Assembly: GCA_947630535.1 (NCBI GenBank)
Contig: CANRHZ010000019.1
Location: 1-35,050, forward strand
Origin: Candidatus Gastranaerophilales bacterium
Lineage (GTDB): Bacteria > Cyanobacteriota > Vampirovibrionia > Gastranaerophilales > Gastranaerophilaceae
DNA: 35,050 nt
Direction of reading: 5' to 3'
Part shown: in pieces, positions 1 through 35,050 of the stretch
Layout: each line of letters starts with the position of its first letter
How positions within the stretch are numbered: position 1 is the stretch's first letter
Notes under the pieces: generated by a model
The model's input: the letters and a program-made list of their open reading frames with translations, nothing else
Told to the model about the DNA's origin: nothing
Databases searched by the model: none
Program-made: the position numbers and the translations under genes

Positions 1-24
1 GTAAGCTCCAAACAATTTAACCAT
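1..24 (-). CDS. Prepilin leader, truncated by the left window edge
   Basis: Only the first eight codons are present, reading MVKLFGAY on the minus strand from an ATG at 24. A GGGAG ribosome-binding site lies eight bases upstream of the ATG. The same eight codons start the partial gene at 35015, where they run into a poly-C tract; the G at position 1 is the first base of what would be the same tract here. By comparison with the complete gene at 275-1278, the missing part should be a type IV pilin-like protein with a homopolymer in its leader. What follows is outside the window, so the reading phase cannot be judged. Confidence 0.6.
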
Positions 25-65
25 AAATTAAACTCCCATCTATATTTTAGTACAATTTCATTTTA
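1..65 (-). repeat. Prepilin 5' module, copy 1 (upstream segment, RBS, start codons)
   Basis: This 65-bp segment is an exact inverted copy of 34974-35038. Read on the minus strand it holds an AT-rich upstream segment, a GGGAG ribosome-binding site, an ATG at 24-22 and seven further codons ending in TAC. A third copy at 1276-1310 keeps 35 bp of it, covering the upstream segment, RBS and ATG. The strict conservation of an untranslated region in front of different prepilins suggests a cassette spread by recombination. Confidence 0.85.
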
Positions 66-243
66 TCAAATTGTTTTATGGATTTCAAGACTATAGATTT
101 TTATTCTTACTAAAATAATGCAGGCAGGATGAAATTGGGGCAAAAAAATATTTATGTTAAAGTCCTAAAAATGCCATGAAAAAAATAAAAACTTTTTGGT
201 AAAAAAATTTCTAAAACCGATAACTTTTTTTAAAAGATAAAAA
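66..243. other. Non-coding gap between two prepilin genes
   Basis: This AT-rich stretch separates the left-edge prepilin start from the terminator of the next prepilin. I see no convincing reading frame in it. On the minus strand it lies upstream of the copy 1 module. Confidence 0.5.
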
Positions 244-274: not shown

Positions 275-1278
275 TTATCTTTTCACGCAGCTAACGTAGT
301 TCAAACCCGAGCGTGTGCTCCTGTAGCGGTACCCATTGGGCATGCACTGTAGCCATGCAAGGCCGCTCGCACCTGAAGAAATGACTGAGCCTGACCAGTA
401 GTAACCGGAACTTATACCAAGTAAAGAACGATTGACAAACATTGAACCAAGTTCATCAATGTCAGGAAGTCTTGCATCATCAGATTGTTGAGTACAAAGA
501 GAAGCAGCATCTTTACCATCAGTGCTATATGATTTTGCGGTTGATGTTGAAGCGTTACTTGGGAATGGGTTAGGCGCAACAACGACGCTATTGGTTCTAT
601 ATAGTACTGTGATAAATCCAACATCCTTTCCGACTTCATTCGGGCCTTTTAAACCGTTTAGGTCATATATCATATTAACGCAAGTTTTTGTTTGAACATA
701 CGACCAAGTATTTGTAACATTTGAACCGCAATTTGGATTATAAAAAAGTGCAACTGATTCACCGTTTATCGTTTCAAATGCTGCCGCTTTAATATCGGTT
801 GTAAGTTTGTAATCATCTTCTGAATAATCGTCAGGGTTAGGATATTGAGTAAAATAAGGGTTTAATTCTTTTAAACTTTTTGGAAAATCAAGATTAGTAC
901 CGTTTAGTGCAATAATGGATGATGGTATCCCGCATGCAGATAAATTATTTGAATTACAGATATTTTGTATTCTATAAACTTTTGATAGTCCATCAATTAT
1001 AAAGGCTTCTGCCGCACCATCTATGATTTGTTGTTCCGTTTCGTTATTTGATGAGCCATAACCTGCAACACTATCCATCTCTCCTATTGCTTGGCTCATT
1101 CTTGCATAAAGTGCTTTTCTTTGTGCGTTCCATGCTTTATCGTTAACATTAACTAATAAACTTGGCAACGTTATTGCTGCAACGATACCGATAATGGCTA
1201 GTGTTATCAATACTTCAGCTAAAGTAAAACCGCCTAATCCCTTGGGGGGGGGGGGTAACAACTTTTTAAAATAGACAT
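275..1278 (-). CDS. Type IV pilin-like prepilin with poly-C leader and lectin-like C-terminus; out of frame as sequenced
   Basis: This is a secreted pilin-like subunit with a type III prepilin signal: GLGG followed by FTLAEVLITLAIIG, with the conserved Glu at +5. The mature part is about 317 residues. The C-terminus (RLPDIDELGSMF, YYWSG, a terminal YVSCVKR) resembles DUF1566/Lcl C-terminal domains, which have a C-type lectin fold. The well-placed start is the ATG at 1278 with GGGAG eight bases upstream, but its frame meets 12 C and stops at TAG soon after. The pilin frame itself is open only from 1261, where the sole possible start is a TTG with no ribosome-binding site. With 10 or 13 C the leader would read MSILKSCY, a Pro run, then KGLGG. 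I read it as a phase-OFF gene. It is probably assembled by the type IV pilus machinery that includes the PilT at 21578-22675. Confidence 0.8.
278..406 (-). other. Candidate DGR-type variable region in the prepilin C-terminus
   Basis: The last 43 codons are clearly GC-richer than the rest of the gene and use codons rare elsewhere in the window (CGC, AGG, CTA, TAC, AGC). They encode the YYWSG to YVSCVKR segment of a DUF1566-like domain. Many codons are NNC/NNT of the sort obtained by substituting adenines in AAC/AAT, and this domain type is a known DGR target. No template repeat or reverse transcriptase is in the window, so the assignment is inferred from composition, position at the very 3' end, and domain type. 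Confidence 0.45.
1244..1255 (-). repeat. 12-C homopolymer, candidate phase-variation tract
   Basis: Twelve consecutive C on the coding strand lie between the ATG at 1278 and the prepilin cleavage site. In the ATG frame TAC takes the first C, and the remaining eleven shift the reading into AGG GAT TAG. Eleven C would run to a TGA a little further on; ten or thirteen open the gene. The tract encodes part of the leader peptide that is removed. Confidence 0.85.
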
Positions 1279-1310
1279 AAATTAAACTCCCATCTATATT
1301 TTAGTACAAT
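1276..1310 (-). repeat. Prepilin 5' module, copy 2 (upstream segment, RBS, ATG)
   Basis: These 35 bp are identical to the matching part of the copies at 1-65 and 34974-35038. They include ACTAAAATATAG, the GGGAG ribosome-binding site and the ATG. After the ATG the leader codons differ from the other copies until the TAC and the poly-C tract. Confidence 0.85.
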
Positions 1311-1355
1311 CTTATTTTAGCAGATTTTTAAACTGTTTTCAATAAAAATAAAAAA

Positions 1356-4217: not shown

Positions 4218-5951
4218 ATGGATTTTAAAAAATTAATGGAAAATAAAACCGTTTTTTACGGTATTATAGCGGGAGCAACGGCAATATTAATTATATTTGT
4301 CATTATTTTTTGTTCCTTGATTTTTTCCGGAAATAAGAAAGTCGCAACCAAAAACGGTGAAATTAATTCACCTGCTCCTTCAAGAGTAATTCAAGAAGAA
4401 GTTTCCATAATGACAACAGATAAAATCGGCATTGCTATTGAAGTACAAGCTCTGCTTGCAAGGTACGGAATAAAGGCAAGAAGGGGGCTTGACGGTACAA
4501 ATTCGACCATTATCTTATCCCCAAAAGATAAAATAACAGAAGACCAGAGAGATATGGCAATTTTAAAAATTGTTGAATCAGGACTTGCCGATGAACATGT
4601 CGGGTTAGAGATGTTTGATAAAGGAGATTTTCAATCAACAAAAGACGATAAAAGAATTCGTCTTATGAGAGCAATTAACGGTGAACTTGCAAAACTCATA
4701 AGAAAAATTGACCCGATTGATAACGCTCAAGTTTTTATCTCTGTCCCCGAACAAACAATGTTTAGTGCAAATCAAAAACCCGTAACTGCAACAGTTCAGG
4801 TTCAATTGCCGCCCGACAGGTCGCTTGACCCAATCAAAGTTAAGGCAATACAAAACCTTTTGATGGGTGCGGTTCAGGGCCTTAAAGCAGAAAATATATC
4901 CATAACCGATACCAACGGCAGAGTTTATGCAAGCATTATAGACGGTGCAGACGATGCGCTTGCAAAAATTCAGGAAAACGATAGCTATATGCAGCAAAAA
5001 GTTTCCGCTCAACTTGACAGATTGGTAGGTAAAGGTAACCACGTTGTTACCGTATCAACTTTCTTGACGCAAGCACCCGTTGAAAAATCCAGTATAATTT
5101 ATGATCCGACTTCAAAGGCTGCCGTTTCGGAACAAGGCTTCACGGAAAAATTGGGAGATAATTCCTTTGATAACAATTCCGCAATAAATGCGGTAAGCGT
5201 GTATTTGCCATACGGTGTTCCAACCTCGGGGCAAAATTCTTCTCAGGACAGAAAATATGTTCGTCAGGCTCATGAAACTCAATACGGGGTTACAAAAACT
5301 CAAATCAATGAATATATGAGAGAAGGGGTTATAGAAGAAATATCAATCGCAGTTTCAATCGAACAGTCTGCAATTCCTATGAGTATGACCATAAACGACC
5401 TTAAAAATTTAATAGCTAAGGCAGCAAGCCCCCTTGTTGATCCCGAAAATGTTTCGATTGCCTTTGTTGAATCGACAAATCCTCTTATGGCGCCCGATAG
5501 CCCAAATAAACTCCCCAAACCCGAAGAATCAGGTAACCCTTGGTGGCTGGTCGGACTTGTTCTTCTTGTTGGCCTTTTCTTTGGTTTGAGGTATATAACT
5601 TCAAGAGTCAGAGCCGAACAGGATAAAAACAATCAGGAACTCGATTACTTAAGACAAAGAGCAAAAGAACAAGAAAAACAATTAAAAGACGTTAACTTAA
5701 AAGCTCAGGAACTCATACAAAAACAGGCACAGATGGCACAGAACCTTATCGAACAACAAAACCTGCAAAAACTTCAGGCGCAACAGGTTCAAGCAATGGT
5801 TTCTCAGGAAAAGTCCGAAGTTAAAGAAGCTAAAGACTCCAAAAAAGATTCCGATATTGAAGATGCAATAAGTGAACTTGCAATGGATTATTCCGGAGTT
5901 GATGATATAGAAGCTATAGAAAAGTTAAAAAGTTGGATTGAAGCAAGTTAA
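4218..5951 (+). CDS. fliF: Flagellar MS-ring protein FliF
   Basis: FliF forms the membrane/supramembrane ring on which the rotor and export gate assemble. Two membrane helices frame the protein, one at about residues 13-36 and one at about 440-460 (WWLVGLVLLVGLFFGLRYI). Between them is the YscJ/FliF periplasmic region with ring-building motifs (EVQALLARYGIKARR, DPIDNAQVFISVPEQTMF). The 577 residues are normal for FliF. The cytoplasmic tail is an unusually Gln-rich coiled coil ending in an acidic segment and SWIEAS, where the FliG-binding helix is expected. The gap to fliE contains TATAAT at 4175-4180 but no good -35, so an internal promoter is uncertain. Confidence 0.95.
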   Translation: MDFKKLMENKTVFYGIIAGATAILIIFVIIFCSLIFSGNKKVATKNGEINSPAPSRVIQEEVSIMTTDKIGIAIEVQALLARYGIKARRGLDGTNSTIILSPKDKITEDQRDMAILKIVESGLADEHVGLEMFDKGDFQSTKDDKRIRLMRAINGELAKLIRKIDPIDNAQVFISVPEQTMFSANQKPVTATVQVQLPPDRSLDPIKVKAIQNLLMGAVQGLKAENISITDTNGRVYASIIDGADDALAKIQENDSYMQQKVSAQLDRLVGKGNHVVTVSTFLTQAPVEKSSIIYDPTSKAAVSEQGFTEKLGDNSFDNNSAINAVSVYLPYGVPTSGQNSSQDRKYVRQAHETQYGVTKTQINEYMREGVIEEISIAVSIEQSAIPMSMTINDLKNLIAKAASPLVDPENVSIAFVESTNPLMAPDSPNKLPKPEESGNPWWLVGLVLLVGLFFGLRYITSRVRAEQDKNNQELDYLRQRAKEQEKQLKDVNLKAQELIQKQAQMAQNLIEQQNLQKLQAQQVQAMVSQEKSEVKEAKDSKKDSDIEDAISELAMDYSGVDDIEAIEKLKSWIEAS

Positions 5952-5995
5952 TATTGTATAATGCTATTGATTTTATCGGGGAGTTAAATTAATTA

Positions 5996-7027
5996 ATGGT
6001 ATCTCAACAACCGCAAAATCCAAATATGCAAAATAATGCTCAGGCGCAAAACCCCAAACAACCTCAAGCCCAAAGAACAATTGAAGGGTTCGACCCGAGG
6101 GCATTTGCAAAAAACCTTGCAATGGAAGCAAGTCAGGTTATTCCCAATAATATAAACGAAAACGACAAAAAATTTATAGTTGAAATTGTCCATAAATTTT
6201 GTCTTTTATGTGGTGATGCGCTTGTTAAGGATGCAAAATACAACCTCAATGCGCAACAAGCAAGTATAATAACCCAATTTATTGGCGAGTGGACATTCCA
6301 TAAATCCGTTGACCTTATAAATGGCGGAATTCCCCCTGAGCTTAGGGAAGGGGTTCTTCAAAAAGTTGCATTTACCGTGTTTGAAATTGCAAAGCAGGCA
6401 ATAAGCAGAAATCTTCCGCAGGAACAGATAATAAGCGTAATTGAAATTCAGGTTAAAAACTGTTTTAAGCAGGCAATGGATGAGCTTAAAGCAAAAGGCA
6501 GGATTAATGAAGAAACCCTGAACAATACTATGCACCAATCAAGCATTGATGATATGAGTCAGCAGGAATTTGACCAAGAGCAGGGACTTGGCGATGATTT
6601 ATCGGATGCCAAAATATTAAAGCTTGCATCTTTGGCGCTTTTAATGAAAAAACTTCCTCAGGAAAAAACAGAAAGTATTGTTTCAAAATTCAACCAATCC
6701 GAAGCTCAGGTTTTATTACAGTATATTAAAATGCCCAACCTTGAACAAAAAATTGATAAAAGTATAACAATCAGATGTCTTGAAGAAATAAAAGAAGTAT
6801 TGCCCGAACCAAAAAACATATCAAAAGACAGAATATATGCAAAATTGTTTAAAATTGTAAAAAGTAGTGAAAAAAATAAAATTTCAAATATTATAGATAA
6901 AGAAAGACCGCAAATAAAGAATTTTGTTCTTTCTCCCTATACGAAGGAGCCTGCCAAAATTCCGTCCAGAGTAGGTAATGTTATCTGCAAATATTTGGAA
7001 GAAAAGCTTTCAAGCGATGATAATTAA
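5996..7027 (+). CDS. Divergent FliG-like protein (position-based candidate)
   Basis: This 343-residue soluble protein lies exactly where fliG is expected, between fliF and fliH. The first 26 residues are Gln/Asn/Pro-rich, and a helical N-terminal domain follows. The C-terminal half has motifs faintly like the FliG middle and C-terminal domains: ALLMKKLPQEKTESIVSKF, SEAQVLLQYIKM and a final PSRVGNVICKYLEEKL. The canonical EHPQ motif and a clear torque helix are not recognisable. It may be a very divergent FliG or a lineage-specific protein replacing or accompanying it. The ATG follows a GGGGAG with fairly long spacing. Its stop overlaps the fliH start by 11 bp, so it is surely part of the operon. 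Confidence 0.75.
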   Translation: MVSQQPQNPNMQNNAQAQNPKQPQAQRTIEGFDPRAFAKNLAMEASQVIPNNINENDKKFIVEIVHKFCLLCGDALVKDAKYNLNAQQASIITQFIGEWTFHKSVDLINGGIPPELREGVLQKVAFTVFEIAKQAISRNLPQEQIISVIEIQVKNCFKQAMDELKAKGRINEETLNNTMHQSSIDDMSQQEFDQEQGLGDDLSDAKILKLASLALLMKKLPQEKTESIVSKFNQSEAQVLLQYIKMPNLEQKIDKSITIRCLEEIKEVLPEPKNISKDRIYAKLFKIVKSSEKNKISNIIDKERPQIKNFVLSPYTKEPAKIPSRVGNVICKYLEEKLSSDDN

Positions 7028-7847
7028 GAAAAAAAATAAGACAGAAAATGAAAATGAAGCCATAAACCAAGTTGCGCCAAAAAGTAGCGGCAATATAATT
7101 AAGGCTGCAAAAAAAGTCAACCCTCTAAAACAAAAGGCTATTGAAAAAAAAGATAAAAAAGAGACCTTTAGTGACAATAAAAAAACAGAACCTAAACAAA
7201 TAAAAAGTGAGCTTGAAATTAAACTTGAGGAGTATGAAAAAATAGATGTATCCGTTTTAGAATACAAAGAAAGATACGAAAGAAGAAGGGGGGAAAGAAG
7301 AAGGGGATTCAGAAGAATTGATGAGAGAACCCTTGTTTCCCGTGCTCAGGAAGAAGCAAGAAATATAAGAGAAGTTGCGCTTCAGGAAGGGTATAAAAAC
7401 GGGCTGAATGAAGCAAGGGGCGAAATAGAGATGCTGAAAAATTCTCTTGTCGGTTTTGTCAATTCTAAAAATGAAGTTTATGATGAACTCACCCCGCACA
7501 TTCTTGAAATTGCCCTTGAAATCGCTAAAAAAATAATTAAAAAAGAAGTTGAGTTGTCAAATGATGTATTAAAATCTGTCATAAAGGAAGTTTTTAGCGA
7601 ACTTAATGCTCAGGAAGAAAAAATTACAATTAAGGTAAACCCTGAAGATGTTGAGTTTGCAAAAGTTTCCTTACCCGAAATTCTTGAGGATGCTCAAATT
7701 GAGGCGAAAATAAGTGTTGTGGGGGATGAAACAATTGAAAAAGGCAGCTGCACCGTAATTGCAAGCAACGGTGTGGTGGATGCCAACTTTTCTACCCAGC
7801 TTTCCATTATTCAAAATGCTTTTGGCATATATAACGGGGGGCAATAA
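7017..7847 (+). CDS. fliH: Flagellar assembly protein FliH
   Basis: FliH is the stator-like regulator of the FliI export ATPase and docks it to the export gate. The N-terminal 90 residues are Lys/Glu-rich. A coiled coil (EARNIREVALQEGYKNGLNE) follows, and then the conserved FliH/HrpE domain with HILEIALEIAKKIIKKEV and EKGSCTVIASNGVVDA. I chose the ATG at 7017 (MIIKKKNK), which overlaps the upstream stop by 11 bp; the frame is open further upstream to 6978, but that would overlap the previous gene much more. No fliI follows, so the ATPase gene must be elsewhere if present. Confidence 0.88.
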   Translation: MIIKKKNKTENENEAINQVAPKSSGNIIKAAKKVNPLKQKAIEKKDKKETFSDNKKTEPKQIKSELEIKLEEYEKIDVSVLEYKERYERRRGERRRGFRRIDERTLVSRAQEEARNIREVALQEGYKNGLNEARGEIEMLKNSLVGFVNSKNEVYDELTPHILEIALEIAKKIIKKEVELSNDVLKSVIKEVFSELNAQEEKITIKVNPEDVEFAKVSLPEILEDAQIEAKISVVGDETIEKGSCTVIASNGVVDANFSTQLSIIQNAFGIYNGGQ

Positions 7848-7850
7848 CTT

Positions 7851-9941
7851 ATGGCACAGGCAAAAACAAATGTTGCAAACAATCCCGTGAGTGAAATCGC
7901 TCTTGCGTTCTTTGTAATTTCTCTTATATTAATACTTTTAATCGAAGTTCCAAACTGGGTTATAAATTTTTCAATCTCGCTTAATATAACCCTTGGAATT
8001 GTCCTTATGATGTTTTCATTATATGTGCAAAAACCTCTTGAACTTGCGTCTTTTCCTTCCATTATTCTTATCGGTACAATGTTTCGGCTTGTTTTATCCA
8101 TTGCATCAACCAGACTTATTCTTGCAAAAGGTGAAGCGGGGGAAGTAATCCATGCGTTCGGGGAATTTGTTACCGGCGGAAATATGGTTGTCGGCGGTGT
8201 TATCTTTTTGATTATTACGGTTGTACAATTTATGGTAATTACAAAAGGTGCCGAACGTATAGCCGAAGTTTCTGCCAGATTTGCACTTGATGCTATGCCG
8301 GGTAAACAAATGACAATTGATGCCGATTTTAATCAGGGGTTAATTTCTCCCGAAGAAGCGGTAAAAAGAAGGGAGGACCTCCAAAGAGAATCTTCGCTTT
8401 ACGGTTCAATGGACGGTGCCATGAAGTTTGTAAAGGGAGATACAATTGCAGGTATTTTAATCGCAATGATTAATATTATCGGGGGTTTAATTATCGGGAT
8501 TGTGCAAAACCATATGCCACCAATGGATGCGGTTTCAAAATATACCGTTTTAACAATCGGTGACGGTCTTTCATCTCAATTGCCATCCCTATTGATGTCC
8601 ATATCTTCAGGTATAGTGATGACCCGATCAACAGGTGCAAGCACATCTTTGGGCAAGGACGTTTCGTTTCAAATTTTATCTAAACCGCAAGCGCTTTTTC
8701 TTGCTTGTACATTTTTGATGTTTATTGCCCTGACAAGCGGTGTGACGGGGTTACCCTGGTGGCCTTTTGTACTGTTTTCCGCAATATTAATATTTGGCGG
8801 CATATCCGTTCTTGTAAATCAGGATGTACAGGCGCAATTAGGACAACTTGAATCCGTAAGAAAAAATATGCAAGACCTTGTTAACCCGAATAAAATGTAC
8901 GAACGCTTAGGGGTGGACGTTTTGAGTTTGCAAGTCGGTTCGGGACTTTTAATTATAGCAGACCCCGATCAGGACGGACAGTTGCTCGCAAAGATTGCCG
9001 CCCTTAGGCAAAGGGTAACGGACGAACTTGGGTATATTATTCCTAATATAAGAATTATGGACTCATCCGCTATAAAAGATAACGAATACCTGATTTCAAT
9101 AAGAGGCAACACCGTTGCAACGGGTGTTGTTTATCCTTCTAAATTTATGGTCATTGCCGACCAGTGGGAAGCATTGGGCAAAAAAGTTCCCGATAATGTT
9201 ATAGTATCGGTTGATCCTACCTATCAATCACAAGCATATTGGATTGATCCTCAGTATATAGACAGAAATACAAAGGTAGTTGCGGTTGATGCGGTTGACG
9301 TTATTGTTACTCACCTTCAGGATTGTGTGAGAAAGTATGTAGATGAAGTCATGACAAAAACCGATGTGTTAAAACTTATGGAACTTGTAAAATCTCAAGA
9401 CCCGACACTGGTTAATGACCTTGTGCCAACTATCATTTCAACTTCGGATTTAAGGAAGATTTTTGTTAATTTAATCAGGGAAAAAGTTTCCATCAAAGAT
9501 ATTATCTTTATTTTTGAAAGACTTTGCGATTATGCAAGATTTTCAAAGGAACCCGATATTTTATCCGAAAGATTGAGGGCGGCTCTCGGGCGCCAGATAT
9601 GCCTTCAAAACTGTAATAAAGATAAAGTCTTATACGCACTTACGCTTTCCGGAGAATGGGAAAAAACTCTGGATGATTCTTGCCAGAGAACCGAACTTGG
9701 TACAATGTTTTTATTGAACCCCATGCAGGTTCAGGAATTAATTGAAACAACCGCAAATACGCTTATGAAAGCGCATCAGGCAGTGGGTGTTCAGCCTGTT
9801 ATATTGTGTTCGCCAAGAATAAGGCTTCCTTTATATCAAATGCTTGAAAGACATATACCCACAATTGTTGTTATATCTTATTCGGAACTTATAACCGATA
9901 TAAGAGTTGAAGCAATTGATACCATAGGTGAGGGGTATTAA
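7851..9941 (+). CDS. flhA: Flagellar type III export gate protein FlhA
   Basis: FlhA is the large membrane component of the flagellar export gate. It uses the proton motive force and binds chaperone-substrate complexes. The 696 residues are full length. About eight membrane helices fill residues 15-330, and a large cytoplasmic domain follows. The FHIPEP-family signature ARFALDAMPGKQMTIDADFN lies in the loop between helices 4 and 5. It starts 3 bp after fliH and ends the operon, overlapping the convergent gene at 9938-10999 by four bases. I see no terminator at this junction. Confidence 0.97.
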   Translation: MAQAKTNVANNPVSEIALAFFVISLILILLIEVPNWVINFSISLNITLGIVLMMFSLYVQKPLELASFPSIILIGTMFRLVLSIASTRLILAKGEAGEVIHAFGEFVTGGNMVVGGVIFLIITVVQFMVITKGAERIAEVSARFALDAMPGKQMTIDADFNQGLISPEEAVKRREDLQRESSLYGSMDGAMKFVKGDTIAGILIAMINIIGGLIIGIVQNHMPPMDAVSKYTVLTIGDGLSSQLPSLLMSISSGIVMTRSTGASTSLGKDVSFQILSKPQALFLACTFLMFIALTSGVTGLPWWPFVLFSAILIFGGISVLVNQDVQAQLGQLESVRKNMQDLVNPNKMYERLGVDVLSLQVGSGLLIIADPDQDGQLLAKIAALRQRVTDELGYIIPNIRIMDSSAIKDNEYLISIRGNTVATGVVYPSKFMVIADQWEALGKKVPDNVIVSVDPTYQSQAYWIDPQYIDRNTKVVAVDAVDVIVTHLQDCVRKYVDEVMTKTDVLKLMELVKSQDPTLVNDLVPTIISTSDLRKIFVNLIREKVSIKDIIFIFERLCDYARFSKEPDILSERLRAALGRQICLQNCNKDKVLYALTLSGEWEKTLDDSCQRTELGTMFLLNPMQVQELIETTANTLMKAHQAVGVQPVILCSPRIRLPLYQMLERHIPTIVVISYSELITDIRVEAIDTIGEGY

Positions 9942-33742: not shown

Positions 33743-33760
33743 ATTTCACTCTTGAAGAAA

Positions 33761-33824
33761 AACGAGCCTTGTAAGCCTTGAAGCATGCACTTAACAACAT
33801 TCGCTCTCCCTTGTCACCCTGAAC
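33761..33824 (+). repeat. Second short repeat family, copy 1
   Basis: This about 64-bp segment (AACGAGCCTTGTAAGCC to TTGTCACCCTGAA) recurs at 34163-34225 with a handful of substitutions. A 12-base fragment of it is also found at 33949-33960. It ends in a left arm of the palindromic repeat. Confidence 0.7.
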
Positions 33825-34162
33825 TAACCAGAAAATAGCACACAAGGCAAAATTCCCTTCGTATAAAGCATTTTATAATCAGAGCACGTAAAGCAACACA
33901 CATTAAACTTCCTTGTCACCCTGAACTTTGCAAAGCAAACAGGTGAAAAACGAGCCTTGTGCGCCTGTATCCGTAGGCGAAGCCGAAGGTGTTTCAGGGT
34001 CTGAGGGGTTGAGAATTCTACATCCCTTCTATTTGTTTAAATGCCTGTTACTTCCATTGGTAAGATGCTGAAACGAGTTCAGCATGACATTTATTAACTT
34101 AAATACAAAAATCCTTACTTAGTATACTGTCACCCTGAACTTTGCAAAGCAAATAAGTGAGG

Positions 34163-34225
34163 AACGGGCCTTGTAAGTTTTGAAGTATGTACTTAACAAC
34201 ATTCGCTCTCCCTTGTCACCCTGAA
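34163..34225 (+). repeat. Second short repeat family, copy 2
   Basis: This matches 33761-33824, including ACTTAACAACATTCGCTCTC, and runs directly into the palindromic unit that begins at 34214. It lies after a CTGAACTTTGCAAAGC segment that is also shared with the unit near 33914. Confidence 0.7.
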
Positions 34226-34327
34226 TTTATTTCAGGGTCTGAGGGATTGAGAATTCTACATCCCTTCTATTTGTTTAAATGCCTGTTACTTCCATTGGTA
34301 AGATGCTGAAACGAGTTCAGCATGACA
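34214..34327 (+). repeat. Most complete REP/BIME unit
   Basis: This copy has the whole layout: the left hairpin TGTCACCCTGAATTTATTTC plus AGGGTCTGA, the conserved centre, and the right hairpin GATGCTGAAACGAGTTC plus AGCATGACA. It is a convenient reference for the others. Confidence 0.75.
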
Positions 34328-34499
34328 TGTTGGGAAATTGTTTCAACAAGTTCAGCATGACATTTATTATTTTAAATACAAAAATCCCTACCCTGCATAC
34401 TGTCACCCTGAATTTATTTCAGGGTCTGAGGGGTTGAGAATTCTACATCCCTTCTATTTGTTTAAATGCCTGTTGCTTCCATTGGTAAGATGCTGAAAC

Positions 34500-34613
34500 T
34501 GTCTTGGATTTCCTCCACGCTCGAACAGTTCCGCAGTTGAACCTACGGTTCAAGTCCCTTTTATGTTCTCGCTATCCAGACTTGGCTTCGCCCTAGTCCG
34601 TACGGAAATCCGC
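34500..34613. mobile_element. About 114-bp insertion inside a REP right arm
   Basis: In the unit starting at 34401 the right arm is split: GATGCTGAAAC ends at 34499 and AGTTCAGCATGACA resumes at 34614. The inserted piece has GGATTTCC (34506-34513) near one end and its complement GGAAATCC (34604-34611) near the other. It also has a perfect internal hairpin, TTGAACC / GGTTCAA (34537-34553). It looks like a tiny non-coding mobile or palindromic element. Confidence 0.45.
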
Positions 34614-34841
34614 AGTTCAGCATGACATTTATTATCTTAAATACAAAAAACTCTGCCATGTATAATGTCACCCTGAACTTGTTTCAGGGTCTTACCGGCG
34701 CAAGAATATAACATGGGATTTATGCACTACTCAGATGCTGAAACGAGTTCAGCATGACATTTATTAAAAATCCCTACTCTGTATACTGTCACCATGAACT
34801 TGTTTCAGGGTCTGATACCTTTTGTATGTTATAATAAAACA

Positions 34842-34946
34842 ATGGATAAAACTTATGCCGTATATATTTTGACAAATTATAATGAAACAACTTTTTATAT
34901 AGGTGTGACAGGTAATCTGCAAAAAATCTTTTTTGTACCAATTTAA
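34842..34946 (+). pseudogene. Truncated GIY-YIG nuclease gene
   Basis: The first 26 or so codons read like the N-terminus of a small GIY-YIG endonuclease of the UvrC-N/YhbQ type: MDKTYAVYILTN, then FYIGVTGNLQ. Such proteins are usually about 80-100 residues. Here the similarity stops near 34920, and the frame ends after eight unrelated codons (KIFFVPI and stop). The catalytic Arg and Glu and the rest of the domain are missing. The break lies about 50 bp before the conserved prepilin module, so a recombination event that brought the module may have cut the gene. Confidence 0.7.
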
Positions 34947-34973
34947 ATTGTTGAAATGTATAAAATAATCTGT

Positions 34974-35038
34974 TAAAATGAAATTGTACTAAAATATAGA
35001 TGGGAGTTTAATTTATGGTTAAATTGTTTGGAGCTTAC
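34974..35038 (+). repeat. Prepilin 5' module, copy 3 (upstream segment, RBS, start codons)
   Basis: This is an exact inverted copy of positions 1-65. It holds the AT-rich upstream segment, GGGAG at 35002-35006, the ATG at 35015 and codons to TAC at 35036-35038. The identity breaks off right at its upstream edge, which marks the limit of the cassette. Confidence 0.85.
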
Positions 35039-35050
35039 CCCCCCCCCCCA
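35015..35050 (+). CDS. Prepilin leader with poly-C tract, truncated by the right window edge
   Basis: The first eight codons read MVKLFGAY and are identical to the partial gene at 1-24. They are followed by the poly-C tract and a final A, the same order as in the complete gene at 275-1278. If the sequence continues as there (AGGGATTAGGCGG), the ATG frame meets TAG and the gene is OFF with 12 C. The pilin part itself is outside the window. Confidence 0.65.
   Translation, partial: MVKLFGAYPPPP
35038..35049 (+). repeat. 12-C homopolymer in the right-edge prepilin leader
   Basis: Twelve C, the first belonging to the TAC codon, are followed by A at 35050. The length and placement equal those of the tract at 1244-1255. 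Confidence 0.8.

Follow-up and report, generated by a model that had tools for sequence, protein, structure and literature searches.

The window analysed here, 35,050 nucleotides from a Candidatus Gastranaerophilales bacterium, is the entire contig C19 of a genome (G000) of 1,851,621 bases in 72 contigs. Its NrdD protein finds its nearest matches in Candidatus Gastranaerophilales genomes, at 92% for the best of them. The arm that starts at position 1 is the reverse complement of 34974-35038, perfectly so over exactly 65 bases, and ungapped extension of the two edge arms reaches 99 nt with 91% complementarity; bases 22-56 are furthermore identical to 1276-1310, which constitute a third copy of 35 bp. 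The original prediction had described just such inverted copies at both edges together with a shorter third one, and sequence comparison bears out their coordinates. The 65-base repeat spans the region from a -10 box to the eighth codon of a leader (MVKLFGAY), and every copy in the window leads into a C tract, that of the left copy being expected to begin where the contig starts. The features are the following:

1-65, minus strand: left-edge pilin gene, 5′ part only, the contig stopping at its C tract (from the sequence)
1-65, minus strand: parts of the left-edge gene, namely -10 box (60-65), 5′UTR, ATG (19-21 region, read leftward) and codons MVKLFGAY (from the sequence)
83-88, minus strand: left-edge gene, -35 box TTGAAA at a distance of 17 bp from the -10 box (by eye; family rule)
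275-1231, minus strand: middle type IV prepilin body of 318 aa, GFTLAEVLITLAIIG..., open, out of frame with the ATG at the assembled tract length
275-406, minus strand: variable region (VR) of the middle pilin, matching the template repeat G000:C30:20268-20399 (TR-VR comparison)
1244-1255, minus strand: 12-base C tract in the leader of the middle gene (G on the plus strand), in frame if 10 or 13
1256-1278, minus strand: leader start of the middle gene, ATG at 1276-1278, codons MSILKSCY (from the sequence)
1276-1310, minus strand: third copy of the 35-bp core, 5′UTR and ATG (sequence match)
1314-1342, minus strand: promoter of the middle gene, -10 TAAAAT at 1314-1319, 17 bp, -35 TTGAAA at 1337-1342 (by eye; family rule)
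34951-34979, plus strand: promoter of the right-edge gene, -35 TTGAAA at 34951-34956, 17 bp, -10 TAAAAT at 34974-34979 (by eye; family rule)
34974-35038, plus strand: right-edge module copy, -10 box, 5′UTR, ATG at 35015-35017, codons MVKLFGAY (from the sequence)
35038-35049, plus strand: right-edge gene, tract of 12 C, after which a single A precedes the contig end (from the sequence)

Elsewhere in the window, flagellar FliF and FlhA genes are found at 4218-9941, in a gut lineage. Positions 33745-34835 are densely filled with dispersed repeats of the kind GTCACCCTGAACTTGTTTCAGGGTCT ... GTTCAGCATGACAT, and 34842-34950 hold the start of a GIY-YIG-like frame (MDKTYAVYILTNYNETTFYIGVTGN; by eye), which breaks off just before the right-edge module.

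The module is not restricted to this contig. With up to 3 mismatches allowed, the genome contains the 35-mer at 43 places and its read-backwards control at none, so that its abundance is not due to chance; a 21-base core with at most 1 mismatch is present in 46 copies, and was found in none of 8 congeners. A prepilin-family module common to the genome, as originally proposed, is thereby confirmed: promoter, 5′UTR, ATG and a short leader run into a C tract, followed by a type IV prepilin. The module is absent from the viral contigs searched (0 matches). The promoter consists of TTGAAn and TAWAAT separated by exactly 17 bp in 44 of the 45 copies for which the two boxes could be located, and the three window copies obey this spacing rule by eye. 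When the 46 copies are aligned on the ATG, identity upstream of -67 is 0.30-0.35, i.e. the flanks are unrelated, and conservation sets in abruptly at the -35 box; identity is 0.48-0.57 in the diverged promoter spacer, both boxes being kept, and 0.92-1.0 across the UTR from -30 to -1. Conservation beginning at the -35 box, together with a diverged spacer between preserved boxes, argues for selection for expression; for the constancy of the UTR, selection and gene conversion both fit. We also considered the module as a mobile element and rejected this, as no element end is seen and conservation stops at the -35 box.

Three kinds of leader (MTNLFGAY, MVKLFGAY and MSI(L/M)KSCY) precede the C run, which is followed by KGLGGFTLAEVLITL, a prepilin cleavage site. 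With the 23-base leader, an open prepilin results from 10 or 13 C and not from 11 or 12. Among the fetched loci of this genome with a visible start and a tract complete within its contig, 26 tracts of 10-13 C were counted, 17 of them with 12 C, 7 with 11, 1 with 10 and 1 with 13; the single 10-C tract sits behind a 24-base leader and is therefore out of frame. At the assembled tract length the pilin is thus out of frame in 25 of the 26 and in frame in one, these lengths being those of the assembly consensus, in which homopolymers of 12 are error-prone; with only one tract in frame, a misreading by one base would change the on/off picture. Were the three frames equally likely, at most one in-frame tract among 26 would have a probability of 3.7e-4, though the lengths are not evenly spread. 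Two members depart from the common design, one having lost its tract (L045; 2 C, out of frame) and the other carrying an interrupted tract (L172; in frame). In-frame and out-of-frame lengths thus both exist ahead of intact genes, across paralogs rather than across cells at one locus.

The genome contains 57 C runs of at least 10, against 0.08 expected from base composition, and 30 of the 58 listed tracts belong to this one gene family with its shared leader design. Tracts outside the pilin family likewise cluster near 11-13, which suggests that the leader may be phased so that the usual lengths correspond to the off state. These other 28 tracts lie outside pilin leaders (G000 C5, C7, C8, C10, C14, C16, C24, C42, C50 and others; L043, L048-L066), several of them, by eye, within or ahead of genes resembling those for glycosyltransferases, fucosyltransferases, epimerases, deacetylases and acyltransferases, reminiscent of the glycan contingency loci known from other bacteria. 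At up to 2 mismatches, a search for the tract-to-pilin junction gave 25 matches here and no match in the 190 other genomes of the family. Out-of-frame tracts ahead of open bodies have the anatomy of slipped-strand phase variation, and it is from this anatomy that we infer switching.

All 30 complete pilin bodies are open, at 303-322 aa (three further bodies, cut by contig or locus ends, are counted apart from these). N_methyl matches each of the 30 at E<=0.01 and TIGR02532 scores above its cut-off, indicating a type IV prepilin cleavage site of the G/FxxxE kind and a hydrophobic N-terminal helix. Protein identity reaches 0.88-1.00 in the best-kept stretches, and identity at fourfold sites is 0.73 in the first 20 codons and 0.37-0.61 beyond; at the nucleotide level, identity over the opening 30 nt of the body is 0.94-0.98. 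Because protein identity has been kept where fourfold sites have diverged, the comparison indicates that the pilin genes are not dead and that they are old paralogs under purifying selection. The C-termini vary within the pattern YWSGSVISSGxxGxAWxQxMxxGxRxRxxRSxxxxVRCVKR. The Lcl_C domain (which we take to be the former DUF1566) matches 21 of the 30 bodies, with 4.6e-8 as the best value; the window pilin scores 17.6 bits, below the Pfam cut-off of 34.9, and its single-sequence structure prediction has a pLDDT of 34. On this domain match, the C-terminal tip is probably C-type-lectin-like.

In a hand-compiled list, 44 of the 144 contig ends of the genome have a module or the start of a pilin body no more than about 150 bases away, so that the suspicion that the window edges are assembly breaks at the repeat holds. 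Three non-family C tracts, on C43, C50 and C65, likewise coincide with contig ends, for which reason the tract alone seems able to stop assembly, apparently through mixed lengths or poor sequencing.

Two reverse transcriptase (RT) genes were found in the genome. On contig C30, an Avd-like gene, a template repeat (TR) and an RT gene follow one another in this order, the TR (C30:20268-20399, between Avd and RT) reading SGNYWSGSVISSGASGLAWKQNMNNGNRNRNTRSNSNYVRCLRR. The C30 RT matches RVT_1 at 1.2e-18 and its closest solved structure, at 1e-35, is PDB 8ub7, presumably the enzyme of the Bordetella phage diversity-generating retroelement (DGR), with which its conserved LPIGNLTSQ and YVDD stretches align; its assignment to the DGR group is made through RVT_1 and 8ub7 rather than a DGR-RT model. 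The Avd-like protein scores 59.3 bits with bAvd (cut-off 40) and 52.1 (6.6e-14) with NCBIfam DivGenRetAVD, below the cut-off of 80 of the latter. The second RT (G000:C50, L186) was rejected as part of the system, being retron type VI-like (PADLOC RT_VI, 1.8e-79); a helix-turn-helix-like ORF lies just upstream of it (by eye).

The 3′ ends of the pilin genes match the TR, and their differences from it are concentrated at its adenines. The window pilin differs from the TR at 13 of 34 A sites and at 4 of 86 other sites, and the pilin at L167 at 18 A sites and 3 others. Ungapped identity to the TR is at least 60% in 21 of the 30 bodies, 20 of which show an A bias at p<0.05 (the exception being L045, p 0.13); the nine bodies below 60% may not be DGR targets. 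A search of the genome yielded 31 places matching the TR besides the TR itself, none of them on C30. Eighteen of the 31 were fetched as further 3′ ends, bringing the distinct pilin 3′ ends to 48 (30 bodies and 18 further); the frame is open to the contig or locus end in 18/18, and the A bias holds at p<0.05 in 16 (exceptions L331, p 0.22, and L332, p 0.059). With the TR as reference, the ratio of A to non-A differences is 2.35, compared with 1.27-1.79 when any VR serves as reference. The TR-VR differences are thus enriched at TR adenines, not confined to them. Avd, TR, RT and adenine-biased differences together point to a DGR with remote pilin targets, which may well be active at present.

The two halves of this arrangement are encountered separately in relatives. 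Congener G007 (L192, L265-L294) possesses RT genes and 126 prepilin matches, and its Avd-TR-RT locus matches pilin 3′ ends. At least 38 places besides the TR match it, a lower bound with 40 of the 49 candidates scored. At the 29 VR loci fetched from this genome, 434 of 1015 A sites differ, as against 351 of 2871 others, and a pilin start lies in the same frame at 26 of the 29; a C run of at least 9 within 1100 bases upstream was found at none of them. Congener G003 gave no RT match and carries an unrelated promoter-ATG-C tract leader (MNLKRF...) in four places (L085, L091, L103, L108), two of them at contig ends. These leaders precede another prepilin class; a pilin is visible behind two of them, once in frame and once out of frame. 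DGR-targeted pilins and leaders with a C tract thus occur apart, and are combined in the genome studied here. Avd-like genes are present in 28 of 181 family genomes. In a third congener assembly (G002), clearly artefactual C runs of 22-52 are located near N gaps.

We consider it likely that the genome of this Gastranaerophilales-like bacterium harbours a family of about 46-48 dispersed type IV prepilin genes which is both phase-switched by C tracts and mutated by a DGR. Each scored gene would be transcribed from its own promoter through a near-identical 5′UTR and start into a leader peptide containing the C run (10-13 in complete tracts), and slipped-strand mispairing in this run would move the pilin in or out of frame, leaving most pilin genes of a cell silent and a few on. 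A single DGR elsewhere, comprising Avd, TR and RT, would rewrite many members of the family at their 3′ ends, at the adenines of the template, and thereby vary the C-terminal, probably C-type-lectin-like, tip; most of this mutation would fall on silent genes. From switch and DGR together it would follow that the cell maintains a large set of pilins with mutating tips, of which few are exposed at a time. The proteins would be assembled into pili and exposed at the surface, where phage, host or ligand may select for variation. It is further conceivable, if somewhat short of an even chance in our judgement, that the family serves as a silently evolving repertoire, tips being mutated while genes with 11 or 12 C are off and rare slippage exposing an already diversified, unselected variant.

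Several other explanations bear on the same observations. Gene conversion or cassette spread might be what mainly keeps the module alike, with the C tract as a passenger or recombination site and not a switch. The type of leader is unlinked to the relatedness of the bodies (permutation p 0.59, 16 genes), as shuffling predicts, the body's first 30 nt are nearly invariant, fourfold identity falls from 0.73 in the first 20 codons to the lower values further on, and the core is missing from the congeners. However, conservation from exactly the -35 box onwards, with a diverged spacer and both boxes kept, also fits selection on the promoter and UTR, and conversion leaves out-of-frame tract lengths ahead of open bodies unexplained. 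Conversion is moreover compatible with a switch and does not exclude it; we regard this explanation as possible but less likely than not. A set level of pilin could alternatively be made by read-through, if ribosomes shifted frame or transcription slipped on the C run, the tract serving to lower expression rather than to switch it. Long C runs can in principle slip during RNA synthesis or decoding, and 30/30 complete bodies are open even though almost every leader, as assembled, is out of frame. Nevertheless, tracts of 11 C and 12 C need shifts in opposite directions, so that no single programmed shift serves both, and in some members the tract is interrupted or lost (in frame in L172, out of frame in L045), which makes this unlikely.

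If the off states were sequencing or assembly errors in tract length, the pilins would simply be expressed. The many contig ends in the family (44/144), those at the non-family tracts C43, C50 and C65 and the artefactual runs of congener G002 speak for this, but many tracts of 10-13 are internal, in unique positions whose flanks are sound, one shift cannot restore both the 11-C and the 12-C genes, and congener G003 carries tract-bearing leaders of its own; errors on such a scale appear quite improbable. Finally, the edge copies, being perfect 65-bp inverted repeats, were originally thought capable of inverting the 35-kb segment between them. This part of the earlier interpretation finds no support, unlike the family module and the assembly breaks, and the C-tract switch and the DGR had been overlooked: the two copies are located at contig ends, they are in no way special among 46, and neither a second orientation nor an invertase at the repeats is seen in the assembly, so that an invertible segment is hardly credible. 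The phase-switched, DGR-mutated prepilin family is the reading we retain.

On this reading, a hidden and changing stock could supply the cell with new surface proteins, and the scale is considerable, with 48 distinct pilin 3′ ends and 31 places matching one template. If the tips do evolve in silence, hypermutation would be decoupled from expression, like a hidden library sampled at random. Whether bacteria diversify their surface proteins during silence becomes testable, as does the question of which selection acts on pilin tips in this little-studied gut lineage, a relative of Cyanobacteria. According to a large survey of DGRs, targets not adjoining the RT would escape it (PMC8144416). This helps to explain why such families are overlooked, as does the fact that 44 of the 144 contig ends fall at this one.

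Poly-C and poly-G contingency loci are known from Neisseria, Campylobacter and Helicobacter, where the homopolymer lies in the coding start of surface genes. The tracts described here resemble them in this position and in having lengths in and out of frame; they differ in that about half of the genome's tracts (30/58 listed) belong to one family with one leader design. To our knowledge, contingency tracts on whole families of DGR targets have no precedent. In the Neisseria pilE/pilS system, silent copies without promoter and start donate to one expression locus. The two systems share many pilin sequences of which few are expressed (as we infer here), but silent cassettes of this type were rejected for the present family, in which UTR and ATG are present in every one of the 46 scored copies, and both promoter boxes in 44 of the 45 scorable ones. 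A literature search covering open-licence papers found no report of phase variation combined with DGR hypermutation.

DGRs with remote targets have been described in cyanobacteria (PMC7517822, PMC8867640) and in Thiohalocapsa (PMC10907252). As far as the cited passages go, these share with the present system the Avd, TR and RT components, a VR at the 3′ end of the target, adenine-directed differences and targets away from the DGR locus. According to the same passages, Trichodesmium has 18 loci with TR/VR homology and two DGRs, and Thiohalocapsa 15 targets for nine DGRs (PMC10907252); here, by comparison, a single template has 31 other matches, and its targets encode type IV prepilins preceded by leaders with a C tract. 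Bacteroides DGRs, as mentioned in PMC12632263, diversify tip proteins of type V pili and thus likewise concern a pilus protein in gut bacteria. In that mention, the Bacteroides pili are of the lipoprotein-derived type V, in contrast to the GFTLAE prepilins studied here, and no leader C-tract switch is mentioned for them. Phase variation and DGR hypermutation are thus each already known, and in this genome they seem to converge on one set of genes, at a large scale.
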